From Candidatus Hydrogenedentota bacterium (lineage in GTDB: Bacteria > Hydrogenedentota > Hydrogenedentia > Hydrogenedentales > SLHB01), in NCBI GenBank assembly GCA_016209895.1, contig JACQVH010000214.1, forward strand, positions 1-54,168: a DNA stretch of 54,168 nucleotides. The letters run 5' to 3'. The notes beneath the pieces are model-generated. The model did no database searches. It worked only from the letters and a program-made list of their open reading frames with translations, and was not told the origin of the DNA. Positions 28,130 through 42,014 of this stretch are shown piece after piece. Both the position numbers and the translations under genes were made by a program. How positions within the stretch are numbered: position 1 is the first letter of the stretch; each line of letters begins with the position of its first letter.

Positions 28130-28357
28130 ATGATCCAGACACTTGAGGCCGTAATAGACCAAGCGGGAAATCTACGCCTTCTTCAACCCGTCGCACTACC
28201 TTCCATGCGTCGCGCTCTCGTCACCATCCTCGACGACGAGCCAGAACCGAGCGTGCTTGAAACGGTAATGATGAGTGAACCAGCATTAGCGTTGGATTGG
28301 AACAACCCGGAAGAGGATGCGGCATGGTCTCACCTGGACCGGCTTCCGTCGTTGTAG
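28130..28357 (+). CDS. Antitoxin of a PemK/MazF-type module
   Basis: This 75-residue protein begins MIQTLEAVIDQAGNLRLLQP, an AbrB/swapped-hairpin-like N-terminus common in small antitoxins. It ends in an acidic, Trp-containing tail (DWNNPEEDAAWSHLD) of the kind that occupies the toxin's active groove. The toxin gene overlaps its 3' end by 34 bases. ATG 28130 has GGA seven bases upstream; GTG 28124 in the same frame is the alternative. Confidence 0.82.
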   Translation: MIQTLEAVIDQAGNLRLLQPVALPSMRRALVTILDDEPEPSVLETVMMSEPALALDWNNPEEDAAWSHLDRLPSL

Positions 28358-28668
28358 TCGAGTTTCCATTCTCCGACCTCTCAGGCGCCAAGCTGCGTCC
28401 CGCAGTGGTCCTTTCGAGTGCAGGCCGCGGCGATTGGATACTCTGCCCGATCACCAGCAATCCGTATAGTGATCCCCAGGCGGTAAAGCTAACGCCAGCG
28501 ACGCTCAGGGCCGGTGCTTTGGCCGATATCAGCTTTGCTCGGCCCACCAAGTTATTTACCGCGCACGAAAGTCTGATGACCAAGCGCGTCGCTATTCTCA
28601 GCAACGAGATTTTCAAGGAGATCCTGCAAACCACGATCGGTGTACTGCAAAAGGCCATGCCCGACTAG
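28324..28668 (+). CDS. PemK/MazF-family endoribonuclease toxin
   Basis: This 114-residue protein has the PemK/MazF fold: VVVVEFPFSDLSGAKLRPAV includes the conserved K/R-RPAVVLS element, CPITSNPYSD is the S/T loop, and ADISFARPTKLFTAHESL matches the substrate-binding strand. These toxins cut mRNA at short motifs. ATG 28324 gives the usual short N-terminus before the first strand and overlaps the antitoxin gene, consistent with coupled translation. Confidence 0.85.
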   Translation: MVSPGPASVVVVEFPFSDLSGAKLRPAVVLSSAGRGDWILCPITSNPYSDPQAVKLTPATLRAGALADISFARPTKLFTAHESLMTKRVAILSNEIFKEILQTTIGVLQKAMPD

Positions 28669-28764: not shown

Positions 28765-29754
28765 TCATGACGCGGCCTTGTCACAGTACTCCGTCAGCAG
28801 CTTCAGATACGTCCGGTACTCGCTCAAAGAGACTCCCGGCGGCGTCTGATGGTCCACTCCCGGAATGTAGCCACCTTGCCGCATCACCGGAAGAATCCGC
28901 TCGAACTCCCTTCGCAACGCATCCTCGCCATTCGTCATAATCATCTTGTCATATCCGCCGATGATTCGCAGCCGAGGATACTCCCGGCGCAGAGCCACGA
29001 TGTCGCAGCCGGCTTGCCGTTCCATGGGCAGGAAGCCGTCTATCCCGACTTCCGCAAACCAGGGAACCAGGTCCTCTGTTCGGCCGTCCGTATCAATGAA
29101 GGGAATGATGCCGTAGCCGTGCAGCTTGGGGACGATTTGTCGGTAATACGGCGCCATGAATTCATCAAAAAGGGCTTTCGAGACCATTGGACCGTTGTGA
29201 TACGACATGTCCTCGGCGAAGGTCATGAAATCGGGCCGGCACACGGCGCACAGCACGTCCAACATCCGCACGAGGAAATCCAAAAGGTCCTGGTTCATGG
29301 CATGGACGGTTTCTGGCCGTTCGTAAAACGCAGTCAGGTGGTTTTCGATGCCGAGCAGCGTTCGCGGGTACCAGAAGAAACCCTCCAGTGTGACCCAGAC
29401 CACCATGTTTCCTGCGGCCTGCCGGTTGGCGTATTCCCGCGCGCGTTGGACGTCAATGGCTTCGGGGTAGAGGTGCTCCTTAATGCCTTCGTACTCGGCA
29501 AGCGAGGTGACGATTCCGCGACCGTGGGCGGGCGCGGACGGCAGCGTCGCTTTGCGGGGAGAAATCCAAAGTTGACGATAGCAGTCTTGGCCGAAATACT
29601 CCCGGATTTCACCGGCGTCAACCAGATGCGCGGGAAGGCCTTCGTTTCGCCACCGCGCGATCGTCTTGTCCCACCAGGTCGCCCACTCGAGGATCGGCAG
29701 CCGGTCCACCGGCTCGAAGTTCATCAAATACTGAAACCGCTCCCGTGCCGTCAT
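28765..29754 (-). CDS. UroD-family protein (methylcobamide methyltransferase-like), DTDG type
   Basis: This 329-residue TIM-barrel protein is of the uroporphyrinogen decarboxylase family, starting TARERFQYLMNFEPVDRLP, the family's usual opening. Members in corrinoid clusters (MtaA, CmuA) transfer methyl groups using a Zn-binding HxC motif. Here that position reads FIDTDGR, so both the His and Cys are replaced. It is the last gene of the methyl-transfer operon, 90 bases after MtaB. Its chemistry may therefore differ from MtaA; true heme-pathway UroD is unlikely given the cluster. Confidence 0.82.
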   Translation of the reverse strand: MTARERFQYLMNFEPVDRLPILEWATWWDKTIARWRNEGLPAHLVDAGEIREYFGQDCYRQLWISPRKATLPSAPAHGRGIVTSLAEYEGIKEHLYPEAIDVQRAREYANRQAAGNMVVWVTLEGFFWYPRTLLGIENHLTAFYERPETVHAMNQDLLDFLVRMLDVLCAVCRPDFMTFAEDMSYHNGPMVSKALFDEFMAPYYRQIVPKLHGYGIIPFIDTDGRTEDLVPWFAEVGIDGFLPMERQAGCDIVALRREYPRLRIIGGYDKMIMTNGEDALRREFERILPVMRQGGYIPGVDHQTPPGVSLSEYRTYLKLLTEYCDKAAS

Positions 29755-29844
29755 CGCCACCCGTTTCGTATCCCGTCCCAACACTCTATCGTCCGACCGG
29801 ACCCGACAAGAAGATTTCTCTCTTCACTTCCCAATCCGCAATTG

Positions 29845-31212
29845 TCACAGGCCGTACTCGATGGGCACGAAGTCGTTGCCGTACACTGACGTATAGTGGT
29901 CGGCCACATTGTCCCCAAGCTGTTCAAACTCGTCGAGGCCACTCTTAATCATGTCCACCCACGGCAGCTCCAATGGCGGTATTTCCAGTGCCGCTTCCTG
30001 CAACGCCTCTTCGATAATGCTTATTGCTTCGCGGGCGGCCAGATAGGCCCGCGTCGTGTAGTCCTCGGAGGCTACAATGGCTTTGGCGATCCGGACGCAC
30101 GATGTCGGCGCTAACACCAGGGCCTCCGCGCTCGTGTGTATGTCGGACTCAGCCAGGAGATTTCGGAGGGTCAGCGTCTGGCCGCTTTGCAGCGCACGAT
30201 TCATCAGCTTGCAGTCGTACCAGAGTTGTTCGAGCATCACCTCCGGCGTGAATCCGCCGAACAGTTGCGCGTAGGGTACCGATTCGTTGCTCCATAGGTC
30301 GCAACAGCACATCGCTACGTTGCCGATGTGGCTCGAGTGCGCGCAGGCCGCCGCCTTGCCTTCCATCGAAATCGGGATGCCGGCAATGGCTTTGAGGATG
30401 GGCCCTTCGTACGCACAGTCCTTGTCCGGTCCGGTTGCTCCGCATTCCAAGGCCACCAGCGAACGGGCGGCGCCGACCGCCCGCACCGTGGCCGCAAAAA
30501 CACTCGGTATCATCTTTCGGCGGGCAAGCTGCATGGCGGTATTGGCAGACCCACAGGCCGCGTCGCCGCCGGCGATCTTGTTGTGCCGGTCCGCGATCTC
30601 GACAATCCGTTTCCAGAGGAAGGCCATGTCGTTGCTGGCGAGCAATCCTACGGCGAAAAGCACGCCACCCGGATCGCATTGCAGGATGGCCTGGTCGGAT
30701 ATCTCCTTGGCCCCGGTGCTTTCGATGGAGAGAATGTCAGAGTACGGCGCGCAGCGTTCGAAGGTCTCGAAGACCAGTTCGGTCTCATTACTGGTACGAT
30801 TGCGCGGCGGTCGGACGCGGTCGCGGATGTCGGCCACCGTAGTGCGTAGCGCGCTGTGCACGCCTTTGTGCTCGTATTCCGTCATGACTTGCCGCGTCGC
30901 CTCGATGACGCGCGCGCCCCAGTCCGGGTGTAAGGTGAGTTCGAAGACCAACTCGATCTCGACGACCAGGGCCGCGATACCCAGTTCCAGGGCCCGTTGC
31001 AGGGTTCCTCTCGCCATGCGACGGTATTGTTCGACGATGTCGTCTATCGTGCGTTCACTGACTTCGGTAGCGTGGGGAAGTATGTAATTGATTTCCGGGT
31101 AGGTTTCGCCGCCACCGACGACGATTCTGGGAGTCACGCGAACCGGATAAGGGCATTCCCCGAAAACAAGCTGATTGGGATCATTGATGGCCAGCGATAT
31201 GTAGGGCTTCAT
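29845..31212 (-). CDS. mtaB: MtaB-type methanol:corrinoid methyltransferase
   Basis: This 455-residue protein is full-length for the MtaB family. Characteristic segments are GGDAACGSANTAMQLA, ALECGATGPDKDCAYEGP and AIAGIPISMEGKAAACAHS. Glu164, Cys220 and Cys266 fall at or near the Glu-Cys-Cys zinc-ligand positions of the Methanosarcina enzyme. MtaB activates methanol on zinc and methylates the cob(I)amide of a MtaC-type corrinoid protein, which the operon also encodes. A related alcohol or methoxy donor is possible. ATG 31212 is preferred; an in-frame GTG lies one codon upstream. Confidence 0.9.
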   Translation of the reverse strand: MKPYISLAINDPNQLVFGECPYPVRVTPRIVVGGGETYPEINYILPHATEVSERTIDDIVEQYRRMARGTLQRALELGIAALVVEIELVFELTLHPDWGARVIEATRQVMTEYEHKGVHSALRTTVADIRDRVRPPRNRTSNETELVFETFERCAPYSDILSIESTGAKEISDQAILQCDPGGVLFAVGLLASNDMAFLWKRIVEIADRHNKIAGGDAACGSANTAMQLARRKMIPSVFAATVRAVGAARSLVALECGATGPDKDCAYEGPILKAIAGIPISMEGKAAACAHSSHIGNVAMCCCDLWSNESVPYAQLFGGFTPEVMLEQLWYDCKLMNRALQSGQTLTLRNLLAESDIHTSAEALVLAPTSCVRIAKAIVASEDYTTRAYLAAREAISIIEEALQEAALEIPPLELPWVDMIKSGLDEFEQLGDNVADHYTSVYGNDFVPIEYGL

Positions 31213-31236
31213 CACTACTCTCTATGAAATGGGAAG

Positions 31237-32127
31237 TCATGCGCGTCTCCCGGCCGTCGCCGCAGCGATCGCACGAATATGATCGGGGCCGGAACCACAG
31301 CACGCGCCGAGGAAACCCGCGCCGGATGCCATTAATTCCGGCACAAACCTGGCGAAGGTTTCGGGCGTCTCGGAATACGTGTCTAGGCCGTTCTTGACCA
31401 CCGGATGACCCGCGTTGGGCTGAACAAGTATAGGTGTGTTGGGGGCGGCTTGGCGGAGTTCGCGAACGATGGGCGGCATTTCCCCGGGCCCCAAGCTGCA
31501 ATTGACACCGATGATATCCGCCCCCGCGGCAAGTGCCGCCTCGGCCATACTGGCTGGCGCTACGCCCATCATGGTGTGGTACCGGCCACCCATTTGGCGG
31601 TCATACGTAAAGGTACAAATTACTTCGAGGGGGGTGTTCTCCTTTGCGGCGCGGATCGCGATGGTCGCCTCGTCCAATGCGGTCATGGTTTCTATCAGGC
31701 AGGCATCGGCTCCACCATCTGCCAAAGCCAATGATTGCCCCTTGAACGCTTCGTACAGTTCTTCCTCGGTTACGTCGCCCATCATCAGGATTTTGCCCGT
31801 GGGGCCAATCGATCCCATCACAAAGCGGTTCGGACCGGCGGCCTCCCGCGAGATGGCGGCCGCCGCGCGGTTCAATTCATGGACGCGGTCGGACAGTCCG
31901 TAATGCGCCAGCTTGAACGCGGAACCCCCGAAGCTGTTAGTCGAGATCGCGTCGGAACCCGCTTCGACGTAGCTCCGAGCAATCTCCAATACCGCCTCGC
32001 GATGCTCGACATTCCAGAGTTCGGGGCACTCGCCGGGGCGCAGCCCCTTGCGAATGAGAAAGGTCCCCCACGCGCCATCCGAAATGAGGACTCGGCCACC
32101 GGTCAATGTTTGTGTAATGCGTTTCAT
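31237..32127 (-). CDS. Homocysteine S-methyltransferase family protein
   Basis: This 296-residue TIM-barrel enzyme is equivalent to the N-terminal module of MetH or to betaine-homocysteine methyltransferase. The three zinc cysteines are visible: GVNCSLGP (about 207) and GACCGSGP (about 279-280). It starts GRVLISDGAWGTFL, the family's usual first strand. It would transfer a methyl group to homocysteine. Next to a separate corrinoid protein it behaves like the first half of a split cobalamin-dependent methionine synthase, without the folate domain. A TTG two codons upstream has better Shine-Dalgarno spacing and may be the start. Confidence 0.88.
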   Translation of the reverse strand: MKRITQTLTGGRVLISDGAWGTFLIRKGLRPGECPELWNVEHREAVLEIARSYVEAGSDAISTNSFGGSAFKLAHYGLSDRVHELNRAAAAISREAAGPNRFVMGSIGPTGKILMMGDVTEEELYEAFKGQSLALADGGADACLIETMTALDEATIAIRAAKENTPLEVICTFTYDRQMGGRYHTMMGVAPASMAEAALAAGADIIGVNCSLGPGEMPPIVRELRQAAPNTPILVQPNAGHPVVKNGLDTYSETPETFARFVPELMASGAGFLGACCGSGPDHIRAIAAATAGRRA

Positions 32128-32191
32128 AAACAACGGTTTCCCTTCCGGGCGCGCAATCCCTTGCGGTCTTCGTGCCGGGACTCTTTGATCG

Positions 32192-32219
32192 CCGGCAGCT
32201 ACCCAACGGACACTGCCGG
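32192..32219 (-). promoter_or_regulatory. Intercistronic hairpin in the methyl-transfer operon
   Basis: CCGGCAG and CTGCCGG form a 7-bp stem with a 14-base loop in the 107-base gap between the corrinoid and homocysteine methyltransferase genes. No U-tract follows, so mRNA processing or stability is more likely than termination. Confidence 0.4.
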
Positions 32220-32234
32220 AAAGGACGCAGATGC

Positions 32235-32909
32235 CTAGTTTCTCGAGTGGCGGTCGGTGAGGTAGTTGAGCGCCCCTTGAGGATCAGGCGAATACGCGTC
32301 CGCGCCGATCTTCTTAGCGAACTCATTCGTCAACGGTGCGCCACCAACCAGAACCGTCGCCTTTGCGTCATGTTGTTTGAGCAGTTTGACCGTCTTCTCC
32401 ATGTTGACCATGGTGGTGGTCAAAAGCGCGCTCAGGCCGACGACACTACCCGGATTCTGCTTGAGCGCCTCCAGGAACTTCTCGGCCGATACGTCTACGC
32501 CGAGGTCCACGACCTTCCAGCCGCCGCCTTCCATGACCATGCCGACCAGATTCTTGCCAATGTCGTGAAGGTCGCCTTGCACGGTGCCCAGAATGAAGGT
32601 GCCCTTATGCTTGGCCTGACCGGATTCGAAGAACGGCTTCAGATGCTTCATTGCGGCCGTCATCGCCTTGGCCGACATGAGCAGGTCGGGAACGAATACC
32701 TTGTTCTCGCTGAACTTCTGTCCGACGTTGCCCATGCCGATGATGAGCGCCCTTTCGAGAATGTCGGTGGCCGGAACACCCGCGCCCAACGCCTTCGACA
32801 CCAGTTCATCGGCGCCGTCCTGTCCGCGCATGTCGGGCGGATAGGGAGATTTGCCGTTGACTTTGCCACGTTCGATACACACCGTGATTTGTTCCAAGAG
32901 ATCCTGCAT
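32235..32909 (-). CDS. Corrinoid (B12-binding) protein, MtaC/MetH-cap type
   Basis: This 224-residue methyl-carrier protein has an N-terminal helical cap (about 1-95, with AGVPATDILERALIIGM) and a B12-binding Rossmann domain whose lower-ligand motif is GDLHDIGKN (the DxHxxG His near residue 117). Further family motifs are GLSALLTTTM and VLVGGAPLT. The cobalt is methylated by MtaB and demethylated by an acceptor enzyme. ATG 32909 has a perfect GGAGGAGG upstream, the strongest ribosome site of the operon. The gene lies between a UroD-family gene and the homocysteine methyltransferase. Confidence 0.92.
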   Translation of the reverse strand: MQDLLEQITVCIERGKVNGKSPYPPDMRGQDGADELVSKALGAGVPATDILERALIIGMGNVGQKFSENKVFVPDLLMSAKAMTAAMKHLKPFFESGQAKHKGTFILGTVQGDLHDIGKNLVGMVMEGGGWKVVDLGVDVSAEKFLEALKQNPGSVVGLSALLTTTMVNMEKTVKLLKQHDAKATVLVGGAPLTNEFAKKIGADAYSPDPQGALNYLTDRHSRN

Positions 32910-32938
32910 TGTTTCCTCCTCCTCTAATCCCAAGTCTG

Positions 32939-34021
32939 CTAATAGTTGCCTAACTCAAGACCTTTTTCAATAAAATACCTGTAGCTGTTGTATTGCACCT
33001 GGTCGGGGATCGAATGGTCCGAGTGCAAGACGTATCCGAAATTATTCTTGACTACGGGAATCTTCAAGAGCAACTCTTCGTCAATCCGGCGGCGGTCGTT
33101 CGAGTATAAGACCCGCACGTCAATGCCGCCCATGAAGGAGAGTCGGTCGCCGTAATCCTGGTAAAGTTGAAGGAGGTCCATACCGGCCTTGACCTCGATC
33201 ACTTGCAAGCAATCAATCCCGGCTTCGATCATTCCGGGTACCAACGGCGCCACCATGCCGCACGAATGCATAATCACCGGCAGACCTCGGTCCTTCGCGT
33301 AGCCGACGGTCTTTTTGTGGGCGGGCTGTATAATCTCGCGGTACATGTCCAGCGAGATGAAGGGCCGGCCCTTGAAACCCATGTCTTCGTAGTACCAGAT
33401 GCCGTCCGGATAGCCCTCTTGCCCGAACAGGATTTCCATCAAGTCCACGAGGAGATTGGCATAGGTGTTGACCATGTCTTTGACCCAGTCCGGGTCCACG
33501 GCCATACCCATGAGCATGTACTCGTGTCCGCAGACGGGGTGCATTAATTCGAAGACGTTGATGCCGCACCACGCGAAAAAGCGCCCGCGCTCGGCAGCGC
33601 GCTTCTTAACGTTGCGGTAGTTCTCGAAGTTGATTCGCTTCGGGTCCGGGGTCAAGTGCGGCTTAATGTGCTCTTCCCAGGCGCCGCGGTCCTTGACGAG
33701 GAAATCTACGTGTTCCGGCGTCGTGTCGTGCAGTTTGTGCCGGCGCAATACGGCTCCATTACCGTCGCGAGCCAGGATGGTCTCGTCCGTCTCTTCGATG
33801 ACCTCGGGCTGAAAGTCTAACCGTGCCACGAGGTTGAGCGCGCCGCACTCCTGGATATCAAACGGGAAATGGTCTTCGAATGGTTCATCCTTGCCGAGAT
33901 GACCTTCACCCGACCATTTCTTGTGGGTGTCGCCCCAGAAATGCTCATAGAGACCGATGCGGTCCACCGGTTTGCGCTTCAGGATATTGTGGATTCGTTC
34001 TATCCCCGTCAGGGTTCCCAC
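32939..34021 (-). CDS. UroD-family protein with intact HxC zinc motif (MtaA-like)
   Basis: This 360-residue UroD-fold protein is the only one of the four paralogs here that keeps an MtaA/CmuA-like zinc site: VIMHSCGMVAPLV (His and Cys in HSC) with a further Cys in GIDCLQV. Such enzymes move a methyl group from a methylcob(III)amide to a thiol. It lies directly upstream of the corrinoid protein gene, so it is the best candidate for the second methyltransferase. The start is GTG 34021 with AAGGA seven bases upstream. Confidence 0.85.
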   Translation of the reverse strand: MGTLTGIERIHNILKRKPVDRIGLYEHFWGDTHKKWSGEGHLGKDEPFEDHFPFDIQECGALNLVARLDFQPEVIEETDETILARDGNGAVLRRHKLHDTTPEHVDFLVKDRGAWEEHIKPHLTPDPKRINFENYRNVKKRAAERGRFFAWCGINVFELMHPVCGHEYMLMGMAVDPDWVKDMVNTYANLLVDLMEILFGQEGYPDGIWYYEDMGFKGRPFISLDMYREIIQPAHKKTVGYAKDRGLPVIMHSCGMVAPLVPGMIEAGIDCLQVIEVKAGMDLLQLYQDYGDRLSFMGGIDVRVLYSNDRRRIDEELLLKIPVVKNNFGYVLHSDHSIPDQVQYNSYRYFIEKGLELGNY

Positions 34022-34045
34022 GTCATCGTCCTTTTGTAGGCACGT

Positions 34046-35227
34046 CTAGTATTTTGGTTCTCCGCCAACGTTGAACAGCTCCCGTTTGCGGTCCAGATAA
34101 TAAAGGTAATTTTTGAGCGGAATATCCGCCGGCACACGATGGTCCATCGTCGGGATGAAGCCCCCTTGCTCGACATAAGGTAGTAGGCGCTGCAGTTCCT
34201 TGTCAATCAGTTCTTTCGAGTCGGAAAGCTTGCGCTTATCCACCCCGCCCCAGAGCCGGACGCGCTTGCCATATTTGTCTCGAAGGTGACACGGGTCGGA
34301 ACCGGCATGGACTTCGACGGGGAACATAGTATTCAGGCCATTCTCAAGAAACGTATCCGTAATCGGATTAATATTGCCGTCGGTGTCGGTGGTATAGACG
34401 CAGCAGCCATGCCTCACGAGTACGTCGGAAATCCGGCGATACCACGGCCCGACCACCTCGCGGAAAAACTCCGGGGGGACAATGGGTCCTTGGTTGAAGC
34501 AGATGTCTTCCCACCCCATTGCGAAGTCCACCTGAATATGCGGAAGGGCTTGTTCGAGCATGGTGATAATGCAATGGCCGAACGTGTTGATGATCTCGAT
34601 CAGCAGGTCCGGGTCCTCATAGGGCATGGTGGCAATGCGCTCGAAGCCGATGAGGTTGCGCGGGATGCCGACTAGGCTGCCTCCGAAAATCCCGACGGGA
34701 CCAGTGCTGTTCCGCAATTCGGCCACTGATTTCTCGAAATTCTTCCACCGCTCCGGTGCGGCGGGGTCTAGCACGGCCTTGAAGGGTTCCCACGTTTCGC
34801 GGTCCTTAATCGGATAGTCGAGATAGTGGGGGATGGACTGGTGGCCATGTTTGTTGACCTCCGCGACCACACCGAGCTCGTCGCGGTAAACGCGCCGTTC
34901 CTCGTTCTCTTCCAAGACCTCGTGCTTGAAGAGCGGCAAGGGATTAGCGTGCAGATTGACCATGGCCCAATTCTCGATCCCGAAGTAGTCGTACGCGCTG
35001 GCCTCATCCGTGACCGATTCCGGAAGACCCTGTTCGCGCCATACCTCGAGCGTCTTGGACCAGTAACCAAACTCCAAATTCGGCCGTAGCGGCACGTCTT
35101 GGTAGAACATCGTGCGACGAAACCGCTCTTTGAGTGTGAAAGTACTACTGTCTCTGGACTGCCGGTCCTCCAGTTTCGGTTTCTTCTGGAGCCACTGGTC
35201 AATCTCGTCGATCTCTTCAAGATTCAT
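34046..35227 (-). CDS. UroD-family protein, DTDG type, first gene of the operon
   Basis: This 393-residue UroD-fold protein has extra N-terminal residues (EEIDEIDQWLQKKPKLEDR) before the family opening LKERFRRTMFYQDVPLRP. At the HxC position it reads YTTDTDGNINP, lacking both zinc ligands, like the last gene of the operon. The two DTDG proteins may act on something other than a thiol acceptor, or be structural. ATG 35227 is preceded by AGGA at usable spacing; a longer frame would run into the leader structure. Confidence 0.8.
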   Translation of the reverse strand: MNLEEIDEIDQWLQKKPKLEDRQSRDSSTFTLKERFRRTMFYQDVPLRPNLEFGYWSKTLEVWREQGLPESVTDEASAYDYFGIENWAMVNLHANPLPLFKHEVLEENEERRVYRDELGVVAEVNKHGHQSIPHYLDYPIKDRETWEPFKAVLDPAAPERWKNFEKSVAELRNSTGPVGIFGGSLVGIPRNLIGFERIATMPYEDPDLLIEIINTFGHCIITMLEQALPHIQVDFAMGWEDICFNQGPIVPPEFFREVVGPWYRRISDVLVRHGCCVYTTDTDGNINPITDTFLENGLNTMFPVEVHAGSDPCHLRDKYGKRVRLWGGVDKRKLSDSKELIDKELQRLLPYVEQGGFIPTMDHRVPADIPLKNYLYYLDRKRELFNVGGEPKY

Positions 35228-40881: not shown

Positions 40882-40964
40882 TGTTCCTGCACGGGGGCCG
40901 TTTGCATTCTCAGTATTCACTCTCTACCCTTTGAGTCACTTTTCTAATGCATGAAAGGATAACT

Positions 40965-42014
40965 ATGACTTCACGTGAACGGGTGAAGCGAACTTTGGAT
41001 TTTCAGTATCCCGATCGGGCGCCGCGGGATTTGTGGGCTTTGGCGGGCGTCGGGATGCTGCGAAAGGCCGAGCTTGAGGAGGTTCAGCAGCGGTTTCCGT
41101 CGGATTTCTGCGGGCCGCGGGTCCGGTACGGGACGTCGAAGCGGGCGCGGGGTACGCCGGCAGAGGTCGGCGAATACGTTGACGAGTGGGGCTGCGTTTG
41201 GAACGTGGCCGAAATCGGTGTGTGCGGGGAAGTGAAACAGCCGCCACTCGAGGATTGGAGCGCCCTGGCCCATTTCACGCCGCCATGGGAAATCCTGAAC
41301 GAGGCCGACTTCAGCCAGACCAACGAGTCCTGCGCGAAGACCGACAAGTTCGTCAAAGCCGGCACCGGCGTGCGGCCATTCGAGCGGATGCAGTTTCTGC
41401 GCGGGTCCGAGAATCTGTTCCTGGACCTCGCCTACTTGCCGAAAGAACTCTTGCTGTTGCGCGACATGGTGCACGAGTATTTTGTCCGCGAATTGGAACT
41501 GTGGGTGAAGACCGACGTCGAGGCGATTGGTTTCATGGACGACTGGGGCGCCCAGAGCAGCCTGCTGATTTCGCCGGACCTGTGGCGGCAGATATATAAG
41601 CCCTTGTATGCCGATTATTGCAGTATGATCAAGAAGGCGGGGAAATACGTCTTCTTCCATTCCGATGGCCACATTCGCGCAATCATTCCGGACCTCATCG
41701 AGATTGGCGTAGATGCCATGAATTCGCAATTGTTTTGCATGGACATCGAGGAGATCGGCCGCAGTTTCAAAGGAAAGATCACCTTCTGGGGCGAGATTTG
41801 CCGCCAACGTCTCCTGCCATTCGGGACCGTGGACGAAGTGCGCGCAGCGGTGCGCCGCGTCCGTCGGGCGTTGGATGAGGGCAAGGGCGGGGTCATTGCT
41901 CAATGCGAATGGGGCATCCGCGACCCCAAGGAGAACATCGAAGCCGTCTTCGAAACTTGGTCGGAAGACCACCCAGCATCTGTGACCGCGCGACTATCCA
42001 CCACCACCTCGTAA
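40965..42014 (+). CDS. UroD-family protein, HSDG type (fourth paralog)
   Basis: This 349-residue UroD-fold protein opens TSRERVKRTLDFQYPDRAP. At the zinc position it reads FFHSDGHIRAI: the His remains but the Cys is Asp, intermediate between the MtaA-like and DTDG paralogs in the minus-strand operon. It lies outside that operon, on the other strand. AAGGA five bases before ATG 40965 fixes the start. The stop codon sits in the loop of a small hairpin that begins a repeat-rich region. It may serve the same methyl-transfer system or be independent. Confidence 0.82.
   Translation: MTSRERVKRTLDFQYPDRAPRDLWALAGVGMLRKAELEEVQQRFPSDFCGPRVRYGTSKRARGTPAEVGEYVDEWGCVWNVAEIGVCGEVKQPPLEDWSALAHFTPPWEILNEADFSQTNESCAKTDKFVKAGTGVRPFERMQFLRGSENLFLDLAYLPKELLLLRDMVHEYFVRELELWVKTDVEAIGFMDDWGAQSSLLISPDLWRQIYKPLYADYCSMIKKAGKYVFFHSDGHIRAIIPDLIEIGVDAMNSQLFCMDIEEIGRSFKGKITFWGEICRQRLLPFGTVDEVRAAVRRVRRALDEGKGGVIAQCEWGIRDPKENIEAVFETWSEDHPASVTARLSTTTS

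Follow-up and report, generated by a model that had tools for sequence, protein, structure and literature searches.

A candidate corrinoid-dependent methanol/O-methyl compound:homocysteine methyltransferase operon in a Candidatus Hydrogenedentota genome

We describe a six-gene operon in a 54,168-nucleotide contig of a Candidatus Hydrogenedentota bacterium (the window; JACQVH010000214.1, contig 175 of a metagenome-assembled genome (MAG) of 5.34 Mb that is 93.8% complete). With a probability of about two in three, the operon would encode a methanol/O-methyl compound:homocysteine methyltransferase that works through a shared corrinoid protein, CorP, and has methionine as its outlet. We infer the donor substrates, homocysteine as the acceptor, and the direction of methyl flow. 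An earlier note on this DNA had proposed a methionine synthase fed without methyl-folate, and this is the best reading, since a MetH-type homocysteine S-methyltransferase (HMT) and a free corrinoid protein occur with a donor methyltransferase, no free partner specific for folate or coenzyme M (CoM) was found, and the genome encodes RACo-type reactivases.

The operon lies on the minus strand, from 35227 to 28765, in the order U1-U2-CorP-HMT-MtaB-U3. All open reading frames (ORFs) are open and co-directional, with gaps of 24, 5, 101, 21, and 60 bp between successive genes. At 35227, U1 begins with a conserved ATG that follows a GGAG-like ribosome site, and U3 ends at 28765. As judged by the ORFs and by the Pfam and NCBIfam profile searches that we used for all family calls, the operon that the earlier note had delineated (MtaB, a corrinoid protein, a homocysteine methyltransferase, and UroD proteins) does exist, at exactly the coordinates given. 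Since the same gene order is kept in relatives across several genera, the operon is no accident of assembly.

The predicted acceptor enzyme is HMT (31237–32133), a stand-alone protein of the MetH N-terminal type (PF02574, 231 bits). Its C212, C278, and C279 are invariant in our alignment and match the zinc cysteines of MetH and of betaine-homocysteine methyltransferase (BHMT). The closest solved relative is Thermotoga maritima MetH (1q7m, 178 bits), followed by BHMT (73 bits) and MmuM (41 bits), and by sequence HMT is MetH-like, not BHMT- or MmuM-like. HMTs of Bacteroidota and Spirochaetota are 56–58% identical to it, those of Armatimonadota 43%, and the corresponding module of MetH in the same genome 37%. 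It is conceivable that HMT acts alone as a betaine-, dimethylsulfoniopropionate (DMSP)-, or S-methylmethionine:homocysteine methyltransferase that shares the operon by chance; the second-ranked NCBIfam model is the betaine-homocysteine one, and Phaeobacter inhibens Bmt, which shares the Pfam family with HMT and functions within a split MetH, can in vitro also draw directly on betaine and DMSP (PMC12366255). However, both the score difference in favor of MetH and the recurrence, across several phyla, of HMT paired with both CorP and a B12 activation-domain protein make this most improbable.

CorP (32235–32933) contains the two corrinoid-binding domains PF02607 (B12-binding_2) and PF02310 (B12-binding), with an invariant DxHDIG motif. 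Its NCBIfam scores (MtgC_2, 189 bits; pyl_corrinoid, 170; MtaC, 111) are all below cut-offs, and its nearest solved relatives are 1y80 and 7xcn. MtaB (29845–31215) belongs to the methanol-cobalamin methyltransferase family (PF12176, 496 bits) and matches the solved structure 2i2x_A with an E value of 6.5e-90. E165, C221, and C267 of MtaB are invariant in an alignment of 15 sequences and line up with the zinc ligands of Methanosarcina barkeri MtaB (2i2x).

The remaining operon proteins, U1 (34046–35227), U2 (32939–34021), and U3 (28765–29784), belong to the UroD superfamily (PF01208; 39.6, 49, and 54.8 bits, respectively), as does U4 (40947–42014, plus strand; 44.5 bits), which in the host lies 5.6 kb from the operon. 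U1–U3 pass the Pfam cut-off yet are remote from every named UroD subfamily; U2 matches MtaA/CmuA models weakly, and phmmer searches of U1 and U2 against the PDB gave no match. The AlphaFold model of U1 (predicted local distance difference test score, pLDDT, 63) is too poor for use, while that of U2 (pLDDT 86), with UroD and MtaA (4ay8) as its top PDB folds, predicts a UroD-fold barrel. Both U1 and U3 lack the HxC zinc motif, with Asp where His and Cys would stand (TDTDGN ... MDHRVP in U1, IDTDGR ... VDHQTP in U3), and are candidate O-demethylases, U1 on the donor side. In U2, which is 67–77% identical among relatives, H252-x-C254 is invariant and Ser-Asp-His occupies the place of the third Cys of MtaA; our motif table shows this Cys to be absent from all of U1–U4. 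U1 has orthologues at the same position in relatives, U3 has a 65% identical counterpart downstream of HMT in one relative (L143:8209-9219), and U4 is divergent beside U1/U2/CorP in genomes G045, G047–G049, G051, G052, and G054.

Kountz and Balskus state that a His-Cys-Cys site marks the S/Se-methyltransferases of this superfamily, whereas replacement of Cys by a carboxylate or non-ligand marks the O-methyltransferases (PMC10418091). By this active-site rule, U1–U4 would be donor-side O-type enzymes and HMT the sole thiol methyltransferase of the operon. The host genome encodes 31 UroD-superfamily proteins at 31 places: one HemE-like, one with His-Cys-Cys (C102:28543), and about 29 that are O-type or have a degenerate zinc site. 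Could one of these proteins, U2 or C102:28543, deliver most methyl groups to another thiol, with HMT taking part of the flow? U2 is the gene most closely linked to CorP, often in loci without HMT, and C102:28543 has the site of the superfamily's thiol methyltransferases (PMC10418091). Nevertheless, we give this little credence: the carboxylate in place of the third Cys of U2 is the O-type pattern by the same rule, and C102:28543 is unlinked to the operon, with no corrinoid gene nearby.

Two further observations concern UroD proteins. Several UroD genes of the host have glycosidase-, sulfatase-, or sugar-transporter-like genes in their vicinity, which is no more than suggestive. At two other loci (L311:7714-9333 and L313:8071-9690), an MtaA-like UroD protein of 539 amino acids is encoded between CorP and HMT, and that of L311 bears thioredoxin-like domains at its C-terminal end.

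How does the operon relate to other methyl-transfer genes of the host? The idea of a genome without MetH was rejected, as a complete MetH of 1218 amino acids with all five Pfam domains was found (L081:1180-4836); MetF is present too. The operon would thus be a parallel, additional route. The earlier note had held that a full MetH together with a CoM- or tetrahydrofolate (THF)-specific partner would refute its proposal; the former is present, and no free folate- or CoM-specific partner was found, either within the operon or on other contigs of the assembly. Since PF00809 in the assembly is limited to FolP and the fused MetH, there is no free methyl-folate partner of the AcsE, MtvA, or MtgA type. 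Besides MetH, the host has a single free corrinoid protein, and it has one MtaB and two RACo-type reactivases; the earlier note had advised a search for a RamA-type one. Both RACo genes are on other contigs, and the window operon contains no Ram/RACE gene. We rejected the RACo on C37 as a dedicated CorP reactivase because it is part of a carbon monoxide dehydrogenase/acetyl-CoA synthase (CODH/ACS) operon, which leaves the one on C291 free to serve CorP.

The CODH/ACS operon (G000:C37, about 33–45 kb; L265:5219-13744, L082:1848-9104), with gene names from reading of translations, comprises CooC, CooS, an AcsB-AcsD fusion, AcsC, and RACo. It also encodes a weakly MetE-like protein of 361 amino acids; we considered it as a core-MetE/MesB, but it reaches only 20 bits against a MetE-type model, and we do not adopt that reading. 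AcsE is absent from this operon and from the whole host assembly.

Across Hydrogenedentota, MtaB is present in 21 of 68 genomes, often as an orphan, and CorP is far more widespread. We surveyed neighbors within 6.5 kb of CorP at 57 loci; as contig ends cut many of these, the counts are lower bounds. U2 was near CorP at 24 loci, HMT at 23 (plus one on the opposite strand), U1 at 11, and MtaB at 8, and all eight MtaB loci are in one family, in part of that family only. At 11 of the 57 loci, the gene directly following CorP encodes a protein of 220–300 amino acids matching PF02965, the MetH activation domain. The conserved unit is therefore UroD-CorP-HMT(-activation domain), not MtaB, which is an accessory donor module. 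CorP, the activation domain, and HMT together amount to a MetH divided into separate proteins and lacking the folate module. HMT adjoins RACo, U4, and CorP in G047 and G048.

Some MtaB and corrinoid genes of the phylum lie outside this arrangement. Orphan MtaBs with no corrinoid gene near (L067, L068, L072, L074, and L061–L066) fall into two clades, 64–69% and 42–44% identical to the window MtaB. G061, G062, and G059 encode a second, different corrinoid protein that shares about 43% identity with CorP (L178, L179, and L180, respectively) and also have a free pterin methyltransferase, on the same contig in G061; this is probably a conventional folate-directed demethylase system.

To look beyond the phylum, contigs of other genomes were searched with MtaB, which gave 80 loci, and 49 of those genomes were then searched for HMT. 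In Bacteroidales bin82, MtaB-CorP-HMT-ActP (ActP being the PF02965 activation-domain protein) are contiguous, while an uncultured Armatimonadetes and Fimbriimonas have a single cluster of MtaB, CorP, U2-like, U1-like, HMT, U4-like, and RACo genes. The order CorP-UroD-HMT-ActP was found in Bacteroidota loci L301 and L309. In acetogen-type Bacillota, CorP-MtaB occur with a pterin methyltransferase instead (L224, L258, and L262). A free-standing HMT is present in 33 of the 49 genomes, scoring more than 420 bits against the Hydrogenedentota profile in 23 and 240–325 bits in the other 10; the five without any HMT match are all Bacillota, and in three of these MtaB has a pterin methyltransferase next to it. 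Around 30 of the HMTs, a PF02965 protein is near in 13 loci and CorP in 7. In the MtaB tree, one supported clade unites the operon proteins of Hydrogenedentota with some orphan MtaBs, and adjacency to HMT needs at least four changes, which means that the MtaB-HMT association was gained or lost repeatedly. These comparisons favor homocysteine as the acceptor.

What is the methyl donor? MtaB suggests methanol. A long branch (1.03) leads to the MtaB clade of Hydrogenedentota, and the substrate of this clade may therefore be other than methanol. In two Bacteroidia loci (L246:8995-18717 and L213:8995-18354), genes for MtaB, UroD, and either HMT or CorP plus a PF02965 protein occur among sugar genes (the glycoside hydrolases GH31 and GH141, the rhamnose mutarotase RhaM, RhaT, and a sodium:solute symporter, SSF), making these loci candidate methylated-glycan utilization loci. 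Rhamnogalacturonan II, a substrate of GH141 enzymes, contains O-methyl sugars. At L309, a GH120-type protein is encoded beside CorP-UroD-HMT-ActP. These contexts suggest methyl groups derived from glycans, either as O-methyl sugars or as methanol from methyl esters, and those in Bacteroidota make O-methyl sugars no less likely a donor than methanol.

In the mechanism that we propose, MtaB (from methanol or methoxy compounds) or an O-type UroD protein (U1, U3, and probably U2; from methoxy compounds) would methylate the Co(I) of CorP. Like the N-terminal module of MetH, HMT would then move the methyl group from CH3-CorP to zinc-bound homocysteine, yielding methionine and Co(I)-CorP. CorP and HMT would thus act as two modules of MetH, with exchangeable donor enzymes standing in for the folate module. 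CorP accidentally oxidized to Co(II) would be re-reduced in trans by the RACo-type reactivase on C291 or, in relatives, by the stand-alone MetH-like activation-domain protein. The system would operate beside ordinary MetH, and such a direct route may save folate or be of use at times of plentiful methoxy compounds.

The cassette is described nowhere in the open-access literature that we searched (subscription papers were outside that search), and it is a variant on corrinoid methyltransferases and split MetH systems that are already known. Among the closest is the three-part MetH of P. inhibens, in which genetics show that a free HMT and a free corrinoid protein make methionine and which likewise has a free PF02574 module, a free MtbC/MtgC-like corrinoid protein, and a RACo/RamA-type reactivase in trans (PMC5764234). 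Of the features of a split MetH, our system has the free PF02574 module with its Cys3 zinc site, a free PF02607 plus PF02310 module linked to it, and a reactivation module. It differs in that the free pterin (PF00809) module that brings the methyl group of methyl-THF in P. inhibens is absent from operon and genome, MtaB and UroD proteins are present instead, and the host also has a complete MetH. The MtgBCDE system of Ruegeria pomeroyi similarly uses one corrinoid protein for both methionine synthesis and betaine demethylation, serving a demethylase and a homocysteine methyltransferase (PMC12478193). However, its donor enzyme is of the MttB family (glycine betaine), its hub is the folate module MtgD, and it is found in aerobic Alphaproteobacteria, whereas here the donors are MtaB/UroD and there is no MtgD.

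Three further systems are also close. As in MtaABC, which delivers to CoM in methanogens and to THF in acetogens, an MtaB with conserved zinc ligands is encoded beside a corrinoid protein, but there is no His-Cys-Cys MtaA and no pterin methyltransferase, a PF02574 enzyme is there instead, and CorP is nearer to MtgC/pyl_corrinoid than to MtaC. MesA–MesD and core-MetE also make methionine independently of folate, MesA–C from a methyl-corrinoid protein (PMC7857596, PMC7005905); those enzymes have the MetE fold (COG0620) and are thought to be fed by MtrA or the corrinoid iron-sulfur protein, while HMT has the MetH fold (PF02574) and a corrinoid protein of the methylotrophy type as its neighbor. 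Type I mlp clusters share several UroD-superfamily proteins, a corrinoid protein, and the lack of a folate methylase (PMC10418091). In contrast to our operon, with its remote O-type UroD proteins, added MtaB and HMT, and no Ram/RACE gene, the Mlps have His-Cys-Cys sites, which a type I cluster requires of Mlp2 and Mlp3, and more than 25% identity to CoM methyltransferases and are accompanied by a Ram/RACE gene.

Around the operon, promoter and terminator scans gave nothing beyond chance level, and an Rfam scan found no riboswitch or other RNA in the window; in eight relatives its sole match was a tRNA. A PemK/MazF-like toxin gene (28297–28668, plus strand) faces the operon's 3′ end in convergent orientation.

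Several points weigh against a homocysteine methyltransferase. Two MtaB operons (G049 and G057) keep U1-U2-CorP-MtaB without HMT, and many CorP loci of family f3 lack HMT; the proposal of a folate-free methionine synthase centered on MtaB has to be modified to this extent, as MtaB is not core to it. A second methionine synthase seems redundant in a genome with a complete MetH and MetF, the long MtaB branch adds uncertainty about the donor, the survey of HMT co-occurrence covers MtaB genomes only and so has no full background control, and the evidence consists of MAG sequences. It is also possible that the pathway ends in folate: MtaB and the UroD proteins would methylate CorP, the methyl group would pass to THF through MetH running backwards or an unrecognized THF methyltransferase for one-carbon oxidation, and HMT would be a passenger or minor tap. 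Described bacterial systems of this kind usually deliver to THF (PMC10418091), and the acetogen loci with a pterin methyltransferase and the two operons without HMT are in line with such an outlet. We regard it as unlikely, however, given that the host and most relatives have no free pterin-binding methyltransferase and that HMT and the PF02965 protein recur as neighbors of CorP.

If methyl transfer to homocysteine through CorP is borne out, a MetH-type methionine synthase that bypasses folate would exist in Hydrogenedentota, Bacteroidota, and Armatimonadota, forming an unrecognized path by which methyl groups of the environment enter an essential amino acid. It would account for the fact that, outside acetogens, methanol methyltransferases co-occur with free HMT and with B12 activation-domain proteins, and would give the large UroD-family expansions of such genomes a testable function. 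A bolder, tentative extension is a phylum-wide methyl hub, in which about 29 O-type UroD proteins and MtaB would charge one shared corrinoid protein whose main outlet is methionine via the folate-free MetH-type synthase, carrying glycan O-methyl groups and methanol into methionine and S-adenosylmethionine (SAM). In the host, with CODH/ACS but no AcsE in the assembly, the methyl pool of this hub might also reach acetyl-CoA. Glycan demethylation would then be tied to the supply of amino acids and SAM.

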